Shown piece after piece: positions 54,957 through 64,000 of a DNA stretch of 64,000 bases (positions within the stretch are counted from its first letter, which is position 1; each line of letters begins with the position of its first letter). The DNA is from Pseudarthrobacter enclensis (GTDB lineage: Bacteria > Actinomycetota > Actinomycetes > Actinomycetales > Micrococcaceae), in the NCBI RefSeq assembly GCF_001457025.1, contig NZ_KQ758607.1, positions 1-64,000 on the forward strand. The letters run 5' to 3'. A program made the translations under genes and the position numbers. Below the pieces are notes generated by a model that saw only the letters and a program-made list of their open reading frames with translations, did no database searches and was not told the DNA's origin.

Positions 54957-54990
54957 GCCGTTCCCTGCTTTCCGAATGGACCAGCTCTGT

Positions 54991-55026
54991 AAACAACCAA
55001 TCAGTTGATCAACTGATTGGTTGTTT
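54991..55026. promoter_or_regulatory. Perfect 36-bp palindrome upstream of the ArsR-SRPBCC pair
   Basis: AAACAACCAATCAGTTGA is followed at once by its exact reverse complement. It probably is a double operator site of the ArsR-type regulator; the core CAATCAGTTGATCAACTGAT is AT-rich in a GC-rich genome. It could also form a cruciform or hairpin. Confidence 0.85.
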
Positions 55027-55085
55027 AAGGGTACTGCTGCACTCGGCGGTCGGCAAGGAAAATCCTTGTCTTTGTCGACAGCAGT

Positions 55086-55108
55086 TTGTTAGTATGTCAG
55101 TACAAACC
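55086..55108 (+). promoter_or_regulatory. Operator-like sequence A (tautomerase)
   Basis: TTGTT then AGTATGTCAGTACAAACC. Apart from one base, the 23 bp recur at 55564-55586 ahead of the iol operon. TTGT at the left and ACAA at the right make a loose dyad. On the minus strand TGTACTGACA fits 9 of 10 positions of the C. glutamicum IolR motif KGWCHTRACA as I recall it. Confidence 0.7.
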
Positions 55109-55128
55109 CTTCAAAAGGAGATCATTCC

Positions 55129-55533
55129 ATGCCCCTGGTTCGCATTGACGTTAACGAAGGCCGCAGCCCTGAGGAGCTGCAGCGGCTCAGCCGCGGAATC
55201 CACGATGCCATCCTTGCCGAGTACGGCATTCCGGAACGTGACTACTTCCACATCCTCACCGAGCACCCGAGGGGCCAGATTGTGGCGCAGGATGCCGGGC
55301 TGGGATTCGAGCGCACCGGGGGAGTGGTGATGATCCAGATCTTCACCCAGGGCGGCCGTTCGCAGGATGCCAAGCAGAGCCTCTTTGCCGCCGTCGCGAG
55401 CAAGCTGTCCGCCGAGGGGGTGGCCGGCGAGGACGTCTTTATCGGGTACGTCGAAAACACTGCCGGTGACTGGTCCTTCGGCTACGGAAGGGCGCAGTAC
55501 GTTACGGGCGAGCTTGCGGTTCCCAGGAAGTAG
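55129..55533 (+). CDS. Tautomerase family protein
   Basis: A 134-residue protein of the 4-oxalocrotonate tautomerase superfamily. The catalytic proline is residue 2 (MPLVRIDVNEGRS), exposed after Met removal. The length is that of the longer (two-repeat or MIF-like) members. AAAAGGAG lies 8 bases before ATG 55129. An operator shared with the iol operon suggests a link to inositol or a related sugar acid, though no such reaction is known to me. Confidence 0.88.
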   Translation: MPLVRIDVNEGRSPEELQRLSRGIHDAILAEYGIPERDYFHILTEHPRGQIVAQDAGLGFERTGGVVMIQIFTQGGRSQDAKQSLFAAVASKLSAEGVAGEDVFIGYVENTAGDWSFGYGRAQYVTGELAVPRK

Positions 55534-55563
55534 CATCGCGCAAAATTAGCGCGCTCCAAAGTG

Positions 55564-55586
55564 TTGTAAGTATGTCAGTACAAACC
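55564..55586 (+). promoter_or_regulatory. Operator-like sequence B (iol operon), with TTGACA beside it
   Basis: TTGTA then AGTATGTCAGTACAAACC, identical to sequence A except for one base. Two bases on, TTGACA (55588-55593) reads as a -35 element, so a repressor here would block iol transcription. The extra match in the left arm (TTGTA facing TACAA) makes B more symmetrical than A. Confidence 0.75.
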
Positions 55587-55707
55587 TTTGACAGGACAAT
55601 TTATCTAAGGCAAAGTAGTGCTTGTGGCCCACACCACGGCCTGCCAGTCCCAGGAACAGCCGCCCTCAAAGGTTCACCGTTCCACACCAGAAAGGTCCAC
55701 GATTCCC

Positions 55708-56736
55708 GTGACCCACGAGCTTCTTACGATCGGGCGCATCAGCGTTGATATCTACCCGAACGACATCGGGGTTGGCCTGGAGGACGTCAACTCCTTCGGC
55801 AAGTACCTCGGCGGTTCGCCCTCCAACGTTGCTGTTGCTGCCGCCCGGCACGGCCGCCGCACGGGCGTGATCACCCGCACCGGCGACGACGCATTCGGCA
55901 CCTACCTGCACCGTGAGCTGCACAAGTTCAACGTCGACGACGCTTACGTGACACCGGTCAAGGACTGGCCCACAGCGGTCACCTTCTGCGCCATCAAGCC
56001 CGCTACGGACGAGTTCCCGCTCTACTTCTATGGCCGGTTTCCGACGGCGCCGGACCTGCAGATCAAGGCCGAAGAGCTGGACCTCGACGCGATCCGTGAA
56101 GCCCGCATCTTCTGGTCCACGGTGACCGGGCTGTGCCAGGAACCGAGCCGTTCCGCGCATATCGCCGCACACGAGGCACGCCCCCGCGCCGAACTCGCTG
56201 AGGGCCAGTTCACCATCCTGGACCTGGACTACCGGCCGATGTTCTGGGCCTCCGAGGAGGAAGCCCGGGCCGAGGTCGCGAAGATCCTGCCGCATGTCAC
56301 TGTCGCGATCGGCAACGATAAAGAGTGCGCCGTGGCTGTCGGCGAAGGGACTCCGGACGAGCAGGCGGACCGCCTGCTGGCCGCCGGCGTTGAAATCGCC
56401 GTCGTCAAGCTCGGCGCGGAGGGCGTGATGGCCAAGACCCGCACCGAACGCGTTGTCTCCGCGCCGGTCCCGGTGGAAACCCTCAATGGCCTGGGCGCCG
56501 GGGATTCCTTCGGCGGAGCTTTCTGCCACGGGCTGCTGTCCGGCTGGCCGCTGGAGCAGGTCCTGGACTACGCCAACGCTGCGGGCGCGATCGTCGCCTC
56601 CCGCCTCTCCTGTGCCGATGCCATGCCGACGCCGGATGAGGTCACCTCGCTGCTGGCAGAACGGGGCCGTGCCGTCCCGGGCAGCGCCACGGGCACCACC
56701 ACCGCCGCGCTTGCCACCGAAGGAGCAGCACTGTGA
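55708..56736 (+). CDS. iolC: 5-dehydro-2-deoxygluconokinase
   Basis: A 342-residue PfkB/ribokinase-fold kinase that phosphorylates 5-dehydro-2-deoxy-D-gluconate in inositol breakdown. Opening VTHELLTIGRISVDIYPND, GGSPSNVAVAAARHG, and the catalytic LNGLGAGDSFGGAFCHGLL are typical. GTG 55708 lies 12 bases after AGAAAGG; GTG 55618 would add 30 residues without homology. First gene of the iol operon; its stop overlaps the aldolase start. Confidence 0.93.
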   Translation: MTHELLTIGRISVDIYPNDIGVGLEDVNSFGKYLGGSPSNVAVAAARHGRRTGVITRTGDDAFGTYLHRELHKFNVDDAYVTPVKDWPTAVTFCAIKPATDEFPLYFYGRFPTAPDLQIKAEELDLDAIREARIFWSTVTGLCQEPSRSAHIAAHEARPRAELAEGQFTILDLDYRPMFWASEEEARAEVAKILPHVTVAIGNDKECAVAVGEGTPDEQADRLLAAGVEIAVVKLGAEGVMAKTRTERVVSAPVPVETLNGLGAGDSFGGAFCHGLLSGWPLEQVLDYANAAGAIVASRLSCADAMPTPDEVTSLLAERGRAVPGSATGTTTAALATEGAAL

Positions 56737-57668
56737 CGCTCACCCCCGTGACCACCGACCACGCCGTGGACGACGATCCCCGCCGCTATGAGCACCTGAG
56801 CACCATCCGGCTGGAGGACCCGGACGCCGTGGCCCGGGCGGCCAAAGCGCGCCGCCGCCACCCCGGGCTGAAGGCCGGCCGGCAAAACTTCATCGTTGCC
56901 GCCGACCACCCGGCCCGTGGCGCCCTGGCCGTCGGCAGCGATCCGGTGGCCATGGCCGACCGCCGGCAGTTGCTGGACCGGCTGCAGATCGCCCTGGCCA
57001 ATCCTGCGGTGGACGGCATCCTGGCCTCCCCGGACATCATGGATGACCTGCTGCTGCTGGGTGCCCTGGAGGGCAAGCTGGTGTTCGGTTCGATGAACCG
57101 CGGCGGCCTGGCCGGGTTGGTCAACGAGTTTGATGACCGGTTCACCGGCCACACCGCCGCCGCCCTCGAAGCGTTGGGTGCGGACGGCGGCAAGATGCTG
57201 ACCCGAATCTGCCTGGGCGACCCGGACACCGTGGCCACCCTGGAAGCTACAGCCAAGGCGATTGATTCGCTGGCCGAGCGGAAGCTGATCGCCATGGTGG
57301 AGCCGTTCCTCTCGGTCCGGGAGAACGGCCGGGTCCGCAACGACCTGTCTACCAACGCGGTGATCAAGTCCATCGGGATTGCCGAAGGGCTGGGGTCCAC
57401 CAGCGCCTACACCTGGATGAAGCTGCCGGTCGTGGCCGAGATGGAACGCGTCATGGCGGCCACCACGATGCCCACCGTCCTGCTGGGCGGCGACCCGGAC
57501 GGGACCCAAGACGAGGTGTTTGCCACCTGGGGCGCCGCGCTGTCGCTGCCGGGCGTTCAGGGCCTCACGGTGGGCCGTACCCTGCTCTATCCCGCGGACG
57601 GGGACGTCGCCGGCGCTGTCGCCGCGGCCGCCTCGCTGCTGCACCACACCACAGAAGCATCGGAGTAA
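56733..57668 (+). CDS. Putative 6-phospho-5-dehydro-2-deoxygluconate aldolase (Cgl0159-like TIM barrel)
   Basis: A 311-residue class I aldolase-like (beta/alpha)8 protein of the type found in actinobacterial iol clusters. It has IVAADHPARGALAVGSD, VDGILASPDIMDDLLLLGALEGK, FGSMNRGGLAGLVNEFDDR and MVEPFLSVRENGRV. It sits where iolJ, the aldolase that splits the phosphorylated ring-opened sugar, is expected, so it probably does that step; direct proof is lacking. GTG 56733 overlaps the iolC TGA. Confidence 0.82.
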   Translation: MTLTPVTTDHAVDDDPRRYEHLSTIRLEDPDAVARAAKARRRHPGLKAGRQNFIVAADHPARGALAVGSDPVAMADRRQLLDRLQIALANPAVDGILASPDIMDDLLLLGALEGKLVFGSMNRGGLAGLVNEFDDRFTGHTAAALEALGADGGKMLTRICLGDPDTVATLEATAKAIDSLAERKLIAMVEPFLSVRENGRVRNDLSTNAVIKSIGIAEGLGSTSAYTWMKLPVVAEMERVMAATTMPTVLLGGDPDGTQDEVFATWGAALSLPGVQGLTVGRTLLYPADGDVAGAVAAAASLLHHTTEASE

Positions 57669-57673
57669 CCGCC

Positions 57674-59647
57674 ATGGGCACAACAGGAACGCGCAGGATG
57701 ACGGTGGCGCAGGCCGTCGTCGAATATCTTTCCCAGCAGTACACCGTGGACACGGTGGGCGGCGTTGAGTACCGGGAGCGGCTGATCCCGGGCACGTTCG
57801 GGATTTTCGGTCACGGCAACGTGGCCGGTGTGGGCCAGGCGCTGAAGCAGTACCAGCAGCAGGATCCCACCCTGATGCCGTACTACCAGGGCCGGAACGA
57901 GCAGGCCCAGGTCCACCAGGCCGTCGGCTACGCCCGGCACACCCGCCGCCGCCAGACCTACGCGATCAGCACCTCGATCGGCCCGGGCTCGTCCAACCTG
58001 CTGACCGGCGCCGCCCTGGCGACCACCAACCGTCTTCCGGTGTTGCTGCTGCCGTCCGACACGTTCGCCACCCGCGCGGCGGACCCCGTGCTGCAGCAGC
58101 TGGAGCAGCCGTACGCGTACGACATCACCGTCAATGACGCGTTCCGGCCGTTGTCCAAGTTCTTCGACCGGGTCAACCGGCCCGAGCAGCTGTTCTCCGC
58201 GTTCCACCACGGCCTGCGCGTCCTGACCGACCCGGCCGAGACCGGTGCGGTGACCATTTCGCTGCCGCAGGACGTCCAGGCCGAGGCCTTCGACGTCCCG
58301 GTCGAGTTCCTGGCCGAGCGGGAATGGCGGATCCGCCGCCCCGACGCGGACGACGCCGACATCGCCCGCGCCGTCCAGGCGATCAAGGCCGCGAAGCGTC
58401 CGCTGATCATTGCCGGCGGCGGTGTCCTCTACGCCTACGCCAACGATGAACTGGCGAAGTTCGCCGAGCTGACCGGGATCCCGGTGGGCAATACACAGGC
58501 TGGCGTCGGTGTCCTGCCCTGGGACCACCAGCAGTCCCTCGGCGCCATTGGTTCTACGGGCACGACGGCGGCGAACGCCATCGCGGCCGAGGCGGACCTG
58601 ATCATCGGCATCGGCACCCGCTACGAAGACTTCACCACCGCGTCCCGCACCGCGTTCCAGAACCCGGACGTGCGCTTCGTGAACATCAACGTCGCCCCGA
58701 TCGACGCGTACAAGCACGGCACCACGCTGCCGATCGTCGCCGACGCCCGCAAGGCGCTGGTCAAGCTCAACGCAGCCCTGGGCGGCTACCGCGTTGGGGC
58801 CGACCTGAAACAGAAGATCGAGGCGGAGAAGCAGCGCTGGGACGCCACCGTGGACGAGGCCTTCGACACCCGCTACACCCCGCTGCCGGCGCAGAACGAG
58901 ATCATCGGCGCCACCAACCGGGCCATGGACGCCCGCGACGTCGTCATCTGCGCGGCGGGGTCGCTGCCCGGTGACCTGCACAAGATGTGGCGGGTCCGCG
59001 ACCCGTTCGGCTACCACGTGGAATACGCTTACTCCTGCATGGGCTACGAAATCCCCGGCGGCCTCGGCGTCAAGCGGGCAGCGATCGCCGAAGCGGCAAG
59101 CACGACGGCGGCAGGCGGGGAAAAAGCGCCGGCGCGGGACGTCGTCGTGATGGTAGGGGACGGCTCCTACCTGATGATGCACACCGAACTGGTCACCGCC
59201 GTCGCCGAACGCATCAAGCTGATCGTGGTCCTGATCCAGAACCACGGCTACGCCTCCATCGGCTCGCTCTCGGAGATGCTTGGTTCGCAGCGGTTCGGCA
59301 CCCAGTATCGTGCCCTGAACGAAGAGCAGCACAGCTTCGACGAGGGTGAAACCCTCCCGGTGGACCTGGCCCTGAACGCCGAATCCCTCGGCGTGAAGGT
59401 GGTCCGGATCGAACCCGGCGAGAAGGTCATCGCCGAACTCGAACAGGCCATCCGCGACGCCAAAGCAGCCCCCGAAGGGTCCGGCCCGATCCTGATCCAC
59501 GTCGAGTCCGACCCGCTGCTGGACGCCCCGTCCTCCGAGTCCTGGTGGGATGTTCCCGTTTCCCAGGTCTCCGAGCTGGACTCCACCAAACAGGCCTTCC
59601 AGACCTACGTCGACCACAAGTCCCGCCAGCGCAAGCTGCTCGGCTGA
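57674..59647 (+). CDS. iolD: 3D-(3,5/4)-trihydroxycyclohexane-1,2-dione acylhydrolase (decyclizing)
   Basis: A 657-residue thiamine-diphosphate enzyme that opens the inositol-derived ring to 5-deoxy-glucuronate. The ThDP motif GDGSYLMMHTELVTAVAERI ends in IQNHGY. GHGNVAGVGQAL near the N-terminus and TSIGPGSSNLLTGAALAT are family marks. It starts 5 bp after the aldolase gene. The iolB isomerase that would use its product is not in this window. Confidence 0.95.
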   Translation: MGTTGTRRMTVAQAVVEYLSQQYTVDTVGGVEYRERLIPGTFGIFGHGNVAGVGQALKQYQQQDPTLMPYYQGRNEQAQVHQAVGYARHTRRRQTYAISTSIGPGSSNLLTGAALATTNRLPVLLLPSDTFATRAADPVLQQLEQPYAYDITVNDAFRPLSKFFDRVNRPEQLFSAFHHGLRVLTDPAETGAVTISLPQDVQAEAFDVPVEFLAEREWRIRRPDADDADIARAVQAIKAAKRPLIIAGGGVLYAYANDELAKFAELTGIPVGNTQAGVGVLPWDHQQSLGAIGSTGTTAANAIAAEADLIIGIGTRYEDFTTASRTAFQNPDVRFVNINVAPIDAYKHGTTLPIVADARKALVKLNAALGGYRVGADLKQKIEAEKQRWDATVDEAFDTRYTPLPAQNEIIGATNRAMDARDVVICAAGSLPGDLHKMWRVRDPFGYHVEYAYSCMGYEIPGGLGVKRAAIAEAASTTAAGGEKAPARDVVVMVGDGSYLMMHTELVTAVAERIKLIVVLIQNHGYASIGSLSEMLGSQRFGTQYRALNEEQHSFDEGETLPVDLALNAESLGVKVVRIEPGEKVIAELEQAIRDAKAAPEGSGPILIHVESDPLLDAPSSESWWDVPVSQVSELDSTKQAFQTYVDHKSRQRKLLG

Positions 59648-59691: not shown

Positions 59692-61206
59692 ATGACTGCC
59701 ACCACCACCGAAACTGCCGTGATCAACCACTTCATCAACGGCGCCGAGACCGCCGGCGAGGGCGACCGGACCACCCCCGTGTACAACCCGGCCACCGGCG
59801 CCGTGACCGGCGAACTGCGCCTGGCCAACCGTGCCGACCTCGACGCCACCGTCGCCGCCGCCCGGGCCGCCGCCGATAGCTGGGGCGACATTTCCCTGGC
59901 CAAGCGCACCGCGGTGCTGTTCAAGTTCCGCGAACTCGTCGCCGCCCACGTGGACGAACTCGCCCAGCTCGTGACGGCTGAGCATGGCAAGGTCCTCTCC
60001 GACGCCAAGGGCGAGATCGGCCGCGGCCTGGAAGTCATCGAGTACGCCTGTGGCATCCCCACCCTGCTCAAGGGCGACTACTCGGACCAGGTCTCCACCG
60101 GCATCGACGTCTTTTCCTTCCGCGAACCCCTCGGCGTCGTCGCCGGGATCACGCCGTTCAACTTCCCCGTCATGGTCCCGCTGTGGATGGCCCCGATGGC
60201 CATCGCCACCGGCAACGCCTTCATCCTCAAGCCCTCCGAACGCGACCCCTCCGCCTCGCTGCTCCTCGCCAAGCTCTGGAAGGAAGCCGGCCTGCCGGAC
60301 GGCGTGTTCCAGGTCCTGCACGGCGACAAGGAAACCGTCGACGGGCTGCTCACCCACCCGGACGTGGACGGCATTTCCTTTGTCGGGTCCACCCCGATCG
60401 CCCAGTACGTCCACGAGACCGCCACCAAGCACGGCAAGCGCGTCCAGGCACTCGGCGGGGCGAAGAACCACGCCATCATCCTTCCCGACGCCGACCTCGA
60501 CAACGCCGCCGACCACCTCGCCGCCGCCGCGTTCGGCTCCGCCGGCGAACGCTGCATGGCCATCTCCGTCGCGGTCGCCGTCGGAGACGCCGCCGACGCC
60601 CTCGTCGCCAAAGTCCAGGACCGCGCCGAAGCCGTCAAGGTCAACAACGGCACCGAACCCGACGCTGAAATGGGCCCGGTGATCACCCCCGCCTCCAAGG
60701 AACGCATCCTGCGGATCGTCACCGAAGCCGAAACCGCCGGCGCCGCCATGGTCGTTGACGGCCGCGACCTCGTGGTCCCCGGCCACGAAGACGGCTTCTG
60801 GGTGGGCCCCACCGTGATCGACCACGTCAAGACCGAAATGACCGCCTACCAGGAGGAAATCTTCGGACCCGTCCTCGTCGTCGTCCGCGTCGACACCCTC
60901 GAAGACGGCATCAAACTGATCAACGCCAACCCCTACGGCAACGGCACCGCCATCTTCACCTCCTCCGGCGCAGCAGCCCGAAAGTTCCAGCGCTCCGTCA
61001 CCGTCGGCATGATCGGCATCAACGTGCCCCTGCCCGTCCCGGTGGCCTACCACTCCTTCGGCGGCTGGAAAGCCTCCCTCTTCGGCGACAAGCACATCTA
61101 CGGCCCCGAAGGCGTCTCCTTCTACACCCGCGGGAAGGTCATCACCTCCCGCTGGCCCGAAACCCACCACGCCTCCGGCGCCTCCTACAACTTCCCCTCC
61201 AACTGA
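59692..61206 (+). CDS. iolA: CoA-acylating methylmalonate/malonate-semialdehyde dehydrogenase
   Basis: A 504-residue aldehyde dehydrogenase that turns malonate semialdehyde into acetyl-CoA, carbon dioxide and NADH, the last step of inositol breakdown. The catalytic cysteine is Cys288 in SAGERCMAIS. GITPFNFPVMVPLWMAPMAI and the family-specific EIGRGLEVIEYACG are present. GGAAGAG precedes ATG 59692. It is also called mmsA when used for valine. Confidence 0.94.
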   Translation: MTATTTETAVINHFINGAETAGEGDRTTPVYNPATGAVTGELRLANRADLDATVAAARAAADSWGDISLAKRTAVLFKFRELVAAHVDELAQLVTAEHGKVLSDAKGEIGRGLEVIEYACGIPTLLKGDYSDQVSTGIDVFSFREPLGVVAGITPFNFPVMVPLWMAPMAIATGNAFILKPSERDPSASLLLAKLWKEAGLPDGVFQVLHGDKETVDGLLTHPDVDGISFVGSTPIAQYVHETATKHGKRVQALGGAKNHAIILPDADLDNAADHLAAAAFGSAGERCMAISVAVAVGDAADALVAKVQDRAEAVKVNNGTEPDAEMGPVITPASKERILRIVTEAETAGAAMVVDGRDLVVPGHEDGFWVGPTVIDHVKTEMTAYQEEIFGPVLVVVRVDTLEDGIKLINANPYGNGTAIFTSSGAAARKFQRSVTVGMIGINVPLPVPVAYHSFGGWKASLFGDKHIYGPEGVSFYTRGKVITSRWPETHHASGASYNFPSN

Positions 61207-61229: not shown

Positions 61230-62141
61230 ATGACTGAGAACAAGCTGATCATCGGCACGGCCCCCGATTCCTGGGGTGTCTGGTTCCCGGACGATCCCCA
61301 GCAGACGCCGTGGGAGCGCTTCCTGGATGAGGTGGCCGAATCCGGCTACAAGTGGATTGAGCTCGGCCCGTACGGCTACCTTCCCACCGACCCCACCCGC
61401 CTGGCCGAAGAACTGAAGCAGCGCGACCTGCAGATCTCAGCCGGCACCGTCTTCACGGCTTTCCACCGCGGACTGGACCAGTGGGAGACCGCCTGGGAGC
61501 CCGCCCGCCAGGTGGCCGAACTGACCGCCGCGATGGGCGGCGAACACATCGTGGTCATCCCCGCCATGTGGCGCGACGACGTCACCGGTGAGGCCGTGGA
61601 AAGCGGCACCCTCAGCGACAAGGCATGGAGCGACCTGTTCGCCGGGCACAACCGCCTGGGCAAGACCCTGCTGGAGGACTTCGGCCTCAAGCAGCAGTTC
61701 CACTCCCACGCCGATTCCCACGTGGGTGCGCAGGCGGACATCGAAACGCTGCTCGGTGCCACGGACCCGCAGTACCTCAACCTCTGCCTGGACACCGGCC
61801 ACGCCGAATACTGCGGAGCATCCAGCCTCGAACTGATCAAGAACTACCCGGACCGGATCGGCTACCTGCACCTGAAGCAGATCAACCCGGACATCCTCAA
61901 GAAGGTCAACGAGGAAAACATGACCTGGGCAGCCGCCAACCTGGCCGGCGTCATGACCGAACCGCCTAACGGCCTGCCGGACCTGCGCGCCGTCATCGAG
62001 GCCGTCGAGGCCCTGAACCGGCCCATCTTCGGCATCGTGGAACAGGACATGTACCCCGTCGCCTTCGACGTGCCCATGCCCATCGCCAAGCGCACCCGCA
62101 ACTACCTGCTGTCCTGCGGCTCCCGCACCGCTGTCAGCTGA
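61230..62141 (+). CDS. iolE: Inosose (myo-inosose-2) dehydratase, TIM-barrel type
   Basis: A 303-residue sugar-isomerase-like TIM barrel. GTAPDSWGVWFPDDPQQTPWERFLDEVAE and ELGPYGYLPTD are typical of IolE; metal ligands are in HADSHVGAQ, CLDTGHAEYCG and YLHLKQIN. The reaction dehydrates 2-keto-myo-inositol to the trihydroxycyclohexanedione used by IolD. It is 23 bp after iolA. Confidence 0.9.
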   Translation: MTENKLIIGTAPDSWGVWFPDDPQQTPWERFLDEVAESGYKWIELGPYGYLPTDPTRLAEELKQRDLQISAGTVFTAFHRGLDQWETAWEPARQVAELTAAMGGEHIVVIPAMWRDDVTGEAVESGTLSDKAWSDLFAGHNRLGKTLLEDFGLKQQFHSHADSHVGAQADIETLLGATDPQYLNLCLDTGHAEYCGASSLELIKNYPDRIGYLHLKQINPDILKKVNEENMTWAAANLAGVMTEPPNGLPDLRAVIEAVEALNRPIFGIVEQDMYPVAFDVPMPIAKRTRNYLLSCGSRTAVS

Positions 62142-62171: not shown

Positions 62172-63185
62172 ATGACTGAAACCCTCCGCGTAGCCGTCAT
62201 CGGTGCCGGACGCATGGGCGCCGACCACATCCAGCGCCTCCACAAGCGCATCCACGGCGCGGAAGTTGCCGCCGTCGTCGACGTTGACCTGGCCCGCGCC
62301 CAGGCCGCCATCGAAGGCATCCCCGGCGCCGTGGCACTCGCCGACGCCGAGGAAGCGCTGAACAACGGCGACGTCAACGCCGTCCTGATCGCCACGCCCG
62401 GTTTCCTGCACGAGGACATCCTCCTCAAGGCCCTCGCCAGGGACATCCCCATCCTCTGCGAAAAGCCGCTGACCCCGGACGCCGAGTCCTCGCTCAAGAT
62501 TGTCGAGGCTGAGGTCGAACTTGGCCGGAAGCGTATCCAGGTGGGCTTCATGCGCCGCTTCGACGCTGAGTACGCCGCCCTGGGCTCCATCATCCGCAAC
62601 TCCGAATTGGGCGAGCTGCTCATGCTGCACCACCAGCACCGCAACCCCAGCACCCCTGAGGGCTTCACCAACGAGATGCTGATCAACGACTCCGTGGTCC
62701 ACGAGTTCGACGCCATCCGGTTCTTCACCGGCGAGGAAATCACCAGCGTCCAGGTCCGCCTCGGCAAAGCCACCAGGAACGCACCCAGCGGACAGCACGA
62801 TCCCCAGCACGTCCTGCTGGAAACCGAGTCCGGTGTCCTGGCCGACGTCGAAATCTACGTCAATGCCAAGTTCGGCTACGAGGTCGCCACGCAGGCTTCC
62901 TTCGAGGACGGCATCGTCAGCATCGGCGGCGACAAGGGCCCCTACACCCGCAGCGCCGGCCGCTGGGGCGGCAACGTCACGCCCGGCTTCGAGGAGCGCT
63001 TTGGCGCGGCGTACGACGTCGAAATCCAGTCATGGGTCGACGCTGCCCTCAAGGGCGAGATCGGCGGCCCCTCCGCCTGGGACGGCTACGCCACCGCAGC
63101 CTGCTGCGAAGCCGGCGTCGAAGCCCAGAAGAACGGCGAGAAGGTGGCCGTCAAGCTGGCCGCCAAGCCGGACCTCTACCGTTAG
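62172..63185 (+). CDS. iolG: myo-Inositol 2-dehydrogenase (Gfo/Idh/MocA family)
   Basis: A 337-residue NAD-dependent dehydrogenase that oxidises inositol to 2-keto-inositol, the first step of the pathway. Rossmann motif VIGAGRMGADH; Glu97-Lys98-Pro99 is the family EKP; NDSVVHEFDAIRFF holds the catalytic His-Asp region. A scyllo-inositol substrate cannot be ruled out. It follows iolE by 30 bp. Confidence 0.92.
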   Translation: MTETLRVAVIGAGRMGADHIQRLHKRIHGAEVAAVVDVDLARAQAAIEGIPGAVALADAEEALNNGDVNAVLIATPGFLHEDILLKALARDIPILCEKPLTPDAESSLKIVEAEVELGRKRIQVGFMRRFDAEYAALGSIIRNSELGELLMLHHQHRNPSTPEGFTNEMLINDSVVHEFDAIRFFTGEEITSVQVRLGKATRNAPSGQHDPQHVLLETESGVLADVEIYVNAKFGYEVATQASFEDGIVSIGGDKGPYTRSAGRWGGNVTPGFEERFGAAYDVEIQSWVDAALKGEIGGPSAWDGYATAACCEAGVEAQKNGEKVAVKLAAKPDLYR

Positions 63186-63224
63186 ACCCTTCCAGCCGCC
63201 CAGATCCACAATGGAGTGTTTTCC

Positions 63225-64000
63225 GTGAAAATCGCACTTGACCCCACCCCGTACCACCACTCGCACAGCCTGCTCGAGTTTCCCAAGGTGGTGGCGGACC
63301 TTGGCTACAAGTACATGCAGATGACCCCGCACCCGGACTTCATCCCCTTCTACAACCATCCCAAGGCTGACGACGAACTGGTGGGACAACTGAAGAAGGC
63401 CTGCACGGACGCCGGCATCGAAATTGCCTCCATCCTGCCGGTACTCCGGTGGTCCGGTCCGGACGAGGATGCCCGCGAAGCTGCTGTCCGTTACTGGAAG
63501 CGGGCCATCCAGATCGCCGTGGACCTGGGCGTCAGCACCATGAACACCGAGTTCAGCGGCCGCCCGGAGAAGGCCGAGGAGTCAGAACGGGCCTTCTACC
63601 GGTCCATGGAGGAACTGGTGCCGATCATCGAGCGGGAAGGCATCGACCTGCTGATCGACCCGCACCCTGACGACTTCGTGGAGGAAGGCCTCGCTGCCAT
63701 CCGCGTGATCCGGGGCGTGAACTCGAAGAACGTGGGCATGGTCTACGTGGCCTCGCACAGCTTCCACATGAAGGACTCCCCATTGGAGATCATGCGCGCG
63801 GCGGGGGACCGGCTGCGCCTGGTCCATGTGGCTGACACCATGGACCACCACGCCTCCCACGGCCTGCGCTACATCACCAACCCGCCGGGCAACCCGGTCC
63901 GCGTCCACCAGCACCTGAAGGTGGGCGACGGCGATGTGAACTGGGACGAGTTCTTCGGCGGCCTCAAGGAAATCGGCTTCCTGGACCGCGAGGACACCGT
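63225..64000 (+). CDS. iolH: IolH-like sugar phosphate isomerase/epimerase, 3' end outside the window
   Basis: The first 258 residues of a TIM-barrel protein. VKIALDPTPYHHSHSLLEFPKVV, YMQMTPHPDFIPFYNHPKADDELV, NTEFSGRPEKAEESERAFYRSM and HPDDFVEEGLAAIRVI match the IolH proteins of actinobacterial iol operons, whose reaction is not firmly established. GTG 63225 has GGAG eight bases upstream. The frame is still open at base 64000; the first in-frame stop lies outside. Confidence 0.88.
   Translation, partial: MKIALDPTPYHHSHSLLEFPKVVADLGYKYMQMTPHPDFIPFYNHPKADDELVGQLKKACTDAGIEIASILPVLRWSGPDEDAREAAVRYWKRAIQIAVDLGVSTMNTEFSGRPEKAEESERAFYRSMEELVPIIEREGIDLLIDPHPDDFVEEGLAAIRVIRGVNSKNVGMVYVASHSFHMKDSPLEIMRAAGDRLRLVHVADTMDHHASHGLRYITNPPGNPVRVHQHLKVGDGDVNWDEFFGGLKEIGFLDREDT

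Follow-up and report, generated by a model that had tools for sequence, protein, structure and literature searches.

Why should a tautomerase gene share a regulatory element with genes of inositol catabolism? In the 64,000-nt stretch of Pseudarthrobacter enclensis DNA analysed here (the window), a tautomerase-family gene stands ahead of an iol operon, and a sequence-only reading of this DNA had joined the two through a shared operator. We examined what the protein may be, how closely its gene follows the inositol genes in relatives, and what may control both.

Identity of the Tautomerase-Family Protein

The gene lies on the + strand at 55129..55533, with AAGGAG ahead of it at 55115-55120, and encodes 134 aa that match PF14552 (100 bits) and PF01361 (54 bits). 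The closest solved relative of the protein was the malonate semialdehyde decarboxylase (MSAD) of coryneform bacterium FG41 (3mjz; E 5.7e-42), and the next was the Pseudomonas MSAD (2aag; E 1e-22). The FG41 enzyme, which is reportedly known from a 3-chloroacrylate degrader, is equal in length to the window protein and 52-53% identical to it over the full length. With Pro numbered as residue 1, the FG41 active-site signature was complete in the window protein, and the same eight residues (P1, D37, T72, Q73, R76, W114, F116, and Y123) are found in both. According to sections of PMC10606566, FG41-type MSADs have an N-terminal catalytic proline and Asp-37, together with Thr-72, Gln-73, and Tyr-123 in place of an arginine pair; all of these were present in the window protein. 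The MSAD of Pseudomonas pavonaceae (2aag), a member of the same family with 33% identity to the window protein, has the arginine pair, whereas the window protein has T72/Q73/Y123 instead.

The sequence-only reading had taken the protein for a 4-oxalocrotonate-type tautomerase. The NCBIfam models for 4-oxalocrotonate/2-hydroxymuconate tautomerases scored under their cut-offs (PRK02220, 30 against 55 bits; PRK02289, 27 against 103; TIGR00013, 20 against 57). These scores, and a length of 134 aa against a subunit of about 60 residues, rule out a 4-oxalocrotonate tautomerase. By its best structure match and its signature, the window protein instead looks like an MSAD of the FG41 type. This was the one gene call that had to be replaced; the others were right.

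Linkage to the Inositol Genes

In inositol catabolism, cleavage of a phosphorylated deoxy-keto-gluconate gives dihydroxyacetone phosphate together with malonate semialdehyde, and IolA converts the latter to acetyl-CoA. The genes that follow MSAD in the window are all on the + strand. The first is iolC (55708..56736), the 5-dehydro-2-deoxygluconokinase gene (TIGR04382, 359 bits, cut-off 300), with a presumed GTG start. It is followed by a Cgl0159-like gene (56733..57668; PF22649, 394 bits) with a putative IolJ role, whose product is presumed to be the aldolase that releases malonate semialdehyde. Next come iolD (57674..59647; TIGR04377, 830 bits, cut-off 715) and iolA (59722..61206; TIGR01722, 737 bits, cut-off 448.5; start uncertain), which encodes the CoA-acylating (methyl)malonate-semialdehyde dehydrogenase. 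Two further genes scored under their cut-offs and were named with the help of their position in the cluster, namely an iolE-like TIM-barrel gene (61230..62141; TIGR04379, 139 bits against 290) and an iolG-like inositol dehydrogenase gene (62172..63185; NF052679, 309 bits against 540). A sugar isomerase-like TIM-barrel gene (63216..64000; PF01261, 159 bits) continues past the window, and a sugar-porter MFS gene (Sugar_tr, 358 bits) is the next one outside it.

Since the inositol-pathway aldolase produces malonate semialdehyde, an MSAD would have its substrate here, and the link between the two would be chemically direct. Action on a keto-sugar intermediate, as had been suggested earlier, need not be assumed, because the pathway itself normally yields malonate semialdehyde. 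Replacement of IolA by MSAD was ruled out in the own genome, in which iolA lies within the cluster. Among the 80 named loci, which are the best 80 of 395 relatives, 78 also had iolA (some of the stretches are truncated). IolA is termed malonate-semialdehyde dehydrogenase in a part of PMC9430895. Replacement of IolB was likewise ruled out, as the own genome has iolB at L039:15464-16357. Because IolA is present, MSAD would be dispensable for growth on inositol.

We then looked at the family, using 120 genomes including the own one and an MSAD threshold of E 1e-10. MSAD was present in 23 of the 120 genomes (own included) and iolD in 39. All 23 MSAD carriers were iolD-positive and none of the 81 iolD-negative genomes had MSAD (Fisher p 1.4e-14, kinship ignored), while 16 of the 39 iolD-positive genomes were without it. 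Among the 22 family relatives with MSAD, the gene was inside the iol cluster in 20, standing directly before iolC in 19 and at the opposite end of the cluster in one; in the remaining 2 of 22 (60% and 43% identity) it was outside. The 80 named loci are nearly all from Arthrobacter, Pseudarthrobacter, Paenarthrobacter, and Sinomonas, and overlap partly with the family sample, so the two sets of counts are not independent. Having been taken as the best 80 of 395, they are close relatives, and in every one of the 80 iolC lies downstream of MSAD at a distance of no more than 1 kb.

The order sample comprised 248 genomes, of which 35 matched MSAD at E 1e-10; the 29 that matched at E 1e-20 were counted. 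None of the six weaker matches dropped in this way lay within 20 kb of iolD. In 23 of the 29 MSAD genomes (own included), MSAD was within 20 kb of iolD, and these genomes belong to three families with differing gene orders (f1, 8; f11, 10; f14, 5). The exceptions were two genomes (G106 and G125) and three fragmented genomes of genus g62, all with MSAD on a contig other than that of iolD, and one genome without iolD (G159). In f11, MSAD-iolC-aldolase-iolB-iolG is divergent from iolD-iolA-iolE. The MSAD of f14 lies 6-18 kb beyond iolD and has the arginine residues of the Pseudomonas type, as in the P. pavonaceae enzyme.

In the first MSAD tree (37 rows), iol linkage needed three changes, all forced by well-supported branches. 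In the second tree (40 rows, with three long rows dropped and six added), it needed four, of which well-supported branches force only one. A single origin of the linkage is disfavoured by the changes required in the two trees, and the linkage has probably arisen more than once. The FG41 enzyme was placed beside the iol-linked clade in the first tree and its place is unresolved in the second, so that its recruitment from inside this clade is unsupported. The position of the Pseudomonas MSAD shifted between the two trees.

Outside the order, MSAD was near iolD in none of the five MSAD genomes of a 296-genome phylum sample, which indicates that the enzyme has other roles too. Plasmid matches from Streptomyces, Klebsiella, Frigoribacterium, B. 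licheniformis, Nicoliella, and Agrobacterium had no iol neighbours, and the Agrobacterium homologue adjoins genes annotated as oxo-heptenedioate hydratase and aldolase. Twenty-two Klebsiella plasmid records matched. On one of them, NZ_CP127519.1 (L201), the tautomerase-family gene (44% identity) lies beside dgcN/dgcA and an ABC transporter, and its role, judged by this neighbourhood, is not inositol-related.

It is unlikely, in our judgment, that the window protein is a member of the regulon that genuinely tautomerises, or hydrates, some other intermediate, such as a diketo or keto-sugar acid. The superfamily is promiscuous, homologues of about 40% identity serve in other pathways, and IolA already deals with malonate semialdehyde. 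However, the complete FG41 signature and the low scores of the 4-oxalocrotonate tautomerase models argue against such an activity, and MSAD clades with differing active sites are all iol-linked, which fits malonate semialdehyde as their shared substrate.

The Operator Pair and Its Conservation

Operator 1, TTGTTAGTATGTCAGTACAAACC, is located on the + strand at 55086..55108, and its partner, operator 2, TTGTAAGTATGTCAGTACAAACC, at 55564..55586 on the same strand, upstream of iolC. A near-identical 23-bp pair before the tautomerase gene and the iol operon had been claimed, and both elements were found in their places; the 23-mers differ at a single base, and the repeat stretches to 26 nt with 24 of 26 identical. 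Between the 3' end of operator 1 and the MSAD ATG at 55129 we counted 20 nt rather than the 21 bp given before. Operator 2 is followed by one base and then by TTGACA (55588-55593), the hexamer already noticed beside the iol copy. The 18-nt core AGTATGTCAGTACAAACC has + strand copies at 55091-55108 and 55569-55586, and its minus strand includes TGTACTGACA, as the sequence-only reading had it.

Allowing up to three mismatches, there was no third copy of AGTATGTCAGTACAAACC in the window and no further copy in the whole genome (4,226,231 bases, 18 contigs), and the backwards control of the core gave zero genome matches. Shuffled windows gave a mean of 0.01 matches, and two matches in 0 of 100 shuffles. 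A degenerate shorter core, TTTGTNCTGACATA, had 14 genome strand matches at up to two mismatches against four for its backwards control, and its zero-mismatch matches were operators 1 and 2.

The family was searched with ATGTCAGNACAAA at up to one mismatch, within 100 nt before MSAD and 300 nt before iolC. In the 20 iol-linked family loci, a site was found before MSAD in 16, before iolC in 16, and before both in 14; no site was found before the two iol-unlinked MSADs. Three genomes of genus g20 were without MSAD's own site. In the named loci (best 80 of 395), a near-match preceded MSAD in 79 of 80, iolC in 77 of 80, and both in 76, compared with 31 of 15,013 random windows from the same stretches. 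The consensus in these loci was TTGTTAGTATGTCAGGACAAACTA before MSAD and TTGTAAGTATGTCAGTACAAACCTTTGAC before iolC, and a distinct consensus at each position argues for two separately maintained sites. The site was also seen in other families. In f14, the operator lies 27-32 nt ahead of MSAD, with one mismatch in four of five loci and two in the fifth. In f11, no site stood before MSAD (0/6), and sites with up to two mismatches were present before iolC in 4/6 and before iolD in 5/6. On a Pseudarthrobacter plasmid with MSAD-iolC-aldolase and, further on, iolB-GntR, there were three sites, one ahead of MSAD, one ahead of iolC, and one next to GntR.

The shuffles, the genome scan, and the conservation in the named loci rule out a chance repeat. 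Nor was the 23-mer widespread apart from iol genes in the genome and relatives scanned, the counter-sign that the sequence-only reading had named. The two operators are thus genuine elements that have practically no other copies in the genome and persist in relatives, which makes it very probable that the tautomerase gene is part of the inositol regulon, as had been proposed.

Regulator and Promoters

A -10-like TAGTAT at 55090-55095, with TTGTCT 18 nt upstream (both by eye), is overlapped by operator 1. A sigma-70 promoter scan gave no 9-of-12 match. The position of operator 1 over this putative -10 and that of operator 2 beside the TTGACA, a putative -35, would both suit a repressor. Further upstream, a perfect 38-bp palindrome (window 54990-55027; 19-nt arms, spacer zero) lies between a divergent ArsR/SdpR-like gene and the MSAD promoter, and it is probably the operator of that ArsR/SdpR-like regulator itself.

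The genome has 29 GntR matches. One of these genes, encoding GntR and UTRA domains (C9:79376-80116), is located about 15 kb past the window, beside iolB and divergent from a sugar porter, and the spacer between it and the porter gene holds a weaker own-genome site, ATTGTGCTGACATT. A GntR homologue was near the iol cluster in the stretches of 11 of 22 family relatives, and a site with up to one mismatch was upstream of it in 4 of these 11. In both f14 stretches that contain GntR as well as iolC (2/2), these genes are arranged divergently and the operator lies in the space separating them. The regulator gene was present in two of the 80 named loci (best 80 of 395). According to portions of PMC9603128 and PMC8634428, IolR of C. 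glutamicum is a GntR-type repressor of inositol genes. The genome studied here likewise has a GntR-family regulator gene near its iol genes, a likeness at the level of the family. Against the reported C. glutamicum IolR motif, KGWCHTRACA, TGTCCTGACA of the relatives fits at 10/10 positions and TGTACTGACA of the window at 9/10. The GntR/UTRA protein is most likely the repressor of both units, a case that is good but not certain.

Other elements were observed around these genes. A LacI-family gene adjoins iolB (L039:14410-15426). With up to one mismatch, TTAGAGCGCTCTAA occurs exactly twice in the genome, at C9:80323-80336 in the GntR/sugar-porter spacer and at C9:148847-148860 before a TIM-barrel gene, each time beside an operator-like site. 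The LacI protein is a natural candidate for TTAGAGCGCTCTAA, which would mean dual control. The TIM-barrel gene (sugar isomerase-like; ATG at C9:148818; PF01261) has upstream of it the perfect palindrome TTTGTCATGACAAA at C9:148876-148889 (L040:5876-5889), where the genome has its one additional match to TTTGTNHTGACAWA without mismatches. This gene could be another regulon member. In genome G231 (L218), a homologue of it (52%) lies between an iolG-like gene and MSAD, accompanied by LacI-family genes, and this arrangement supports an inositol link of the TIM-barrel gene.

The operators could also be a shared site of another regulator, be it a general regulator or the LacI-family protein encoded nearby, with the inositol link a mere matter of neighbourhood. 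We consider this quite improbable. The LacI-type gene does adjoin iolB, the tie between operator and GntR protein is one of sequence, and a good site lies upstream of GntR in just 4 of the 11 relatives; however, the site follows iol promoters across families and onto a plasmid, and the LacI-like candidate TTAGAGCGCTCTAA differs in sequence and occurs at two other places. It is hardly credible that the repeat is an inert duplication left when the tautomerase gene was inserted before iolC: a recent duplication would give such a 26-nt stretch of identity, but most relatives, down to 67-75% protein identity, retain both copies, each copy has its own distinct consensus, and the site precedes MSAD even where iolC is distant (L056 and the f14 loci).

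Discussion

The reading that we consider probable is that the window gene encodes an MSAD of the inositol regulon which is repressed by the GntR/UTRA protein and decarboxylates malonate semialdehyde beside IolA. The repressor would bind the imperfect palindrome RTATGWCAGNACAAAC at the MSAD and iolC promoters, and its release by inositol or an inositol breakdown product would lead to joint derepression of the MSAD and iolC units. Malonate semialdehyde released by the Cgl0159-like aldolase would then be converted by MSAD to acetaldehyde and CO2 in a reaction that needs neither CoA nor NAD, giving a branch parallel to IolA, which makes acetyl-CoA. This branch may serve overflow, protection against the reactive aldehyde, or CoA sparing. 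As IolA is present and MSAD is missing from 16 of the 39 iolD genomes, the branch would be auxiliary.

A precedent exists in Lactobacillus. IolK of Lactobacillus casei BL23 is reported to be the MSAD-family gene of an inositol operon (Yebra 2007), and the earlier remark that no tautomerase step is standard in inositol catabolism overlooked it. We also found a tautomerase-family gene within the iol operon of a Ligilactobacillus salivarius plasmid. Like the window gene, these Lactobacillus genes are of the MSAD family and lie among inositol genes beside iolA. Unlike the window MSAD, the L. salivarius protein is from Bacillota and has an arginine-type active site, and the Lactobacillus gene belongs to the last gene group of one operon, whereas the window MSAD stands apart as a unit under an operator of its own. 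The Lactobacillus IolR is DeoR-type. Part of PMC10606566 counts IolK among the studied MSADs.

Inositol operons that include a gene of the MSAD family are thus known already, with IolK as the example. Beyond mentions of IolK, a search of mainly open-access papers gave no link between MSAD or tautomerase genes and inositol operons. As far as searched, three points are new: an FG41-type member from actinobacteria that has an operator to itself, the recurrence of this operator in several families, and the repeated linkage seen for MSADs of different types.

Bacteria that degrade synthetic chlorinated compounds are the best-known source of MSADs. The operator and the gene linkage give the FG41-type enzymes a concrete natural source of substrate. 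It is conceivable, though we hold it doubtful, that inositol catabolism is a native and widespread job of MSAD in this actinobacterial order, that three MSAD active-site types were each brought into inositol clusters, the same operator preceding two of these types, and that the MSADs of chlorinated-hydrocarbon degraders are recruits from such a pool. If this were true, there would be a CoA-independent branch from inositol to acetaldehyde. Most members of the tautomerase superfamily are uncharacterised, according to part of a survey (PMC11641302). If the proposed role is right, Arthrobacter-type bacteria would have, in their inositol breakdown, a side branch under regulation that disposes of a reactive aldehyde, and a testable function could take the place of the label "tautomerase family protein" in such operons.
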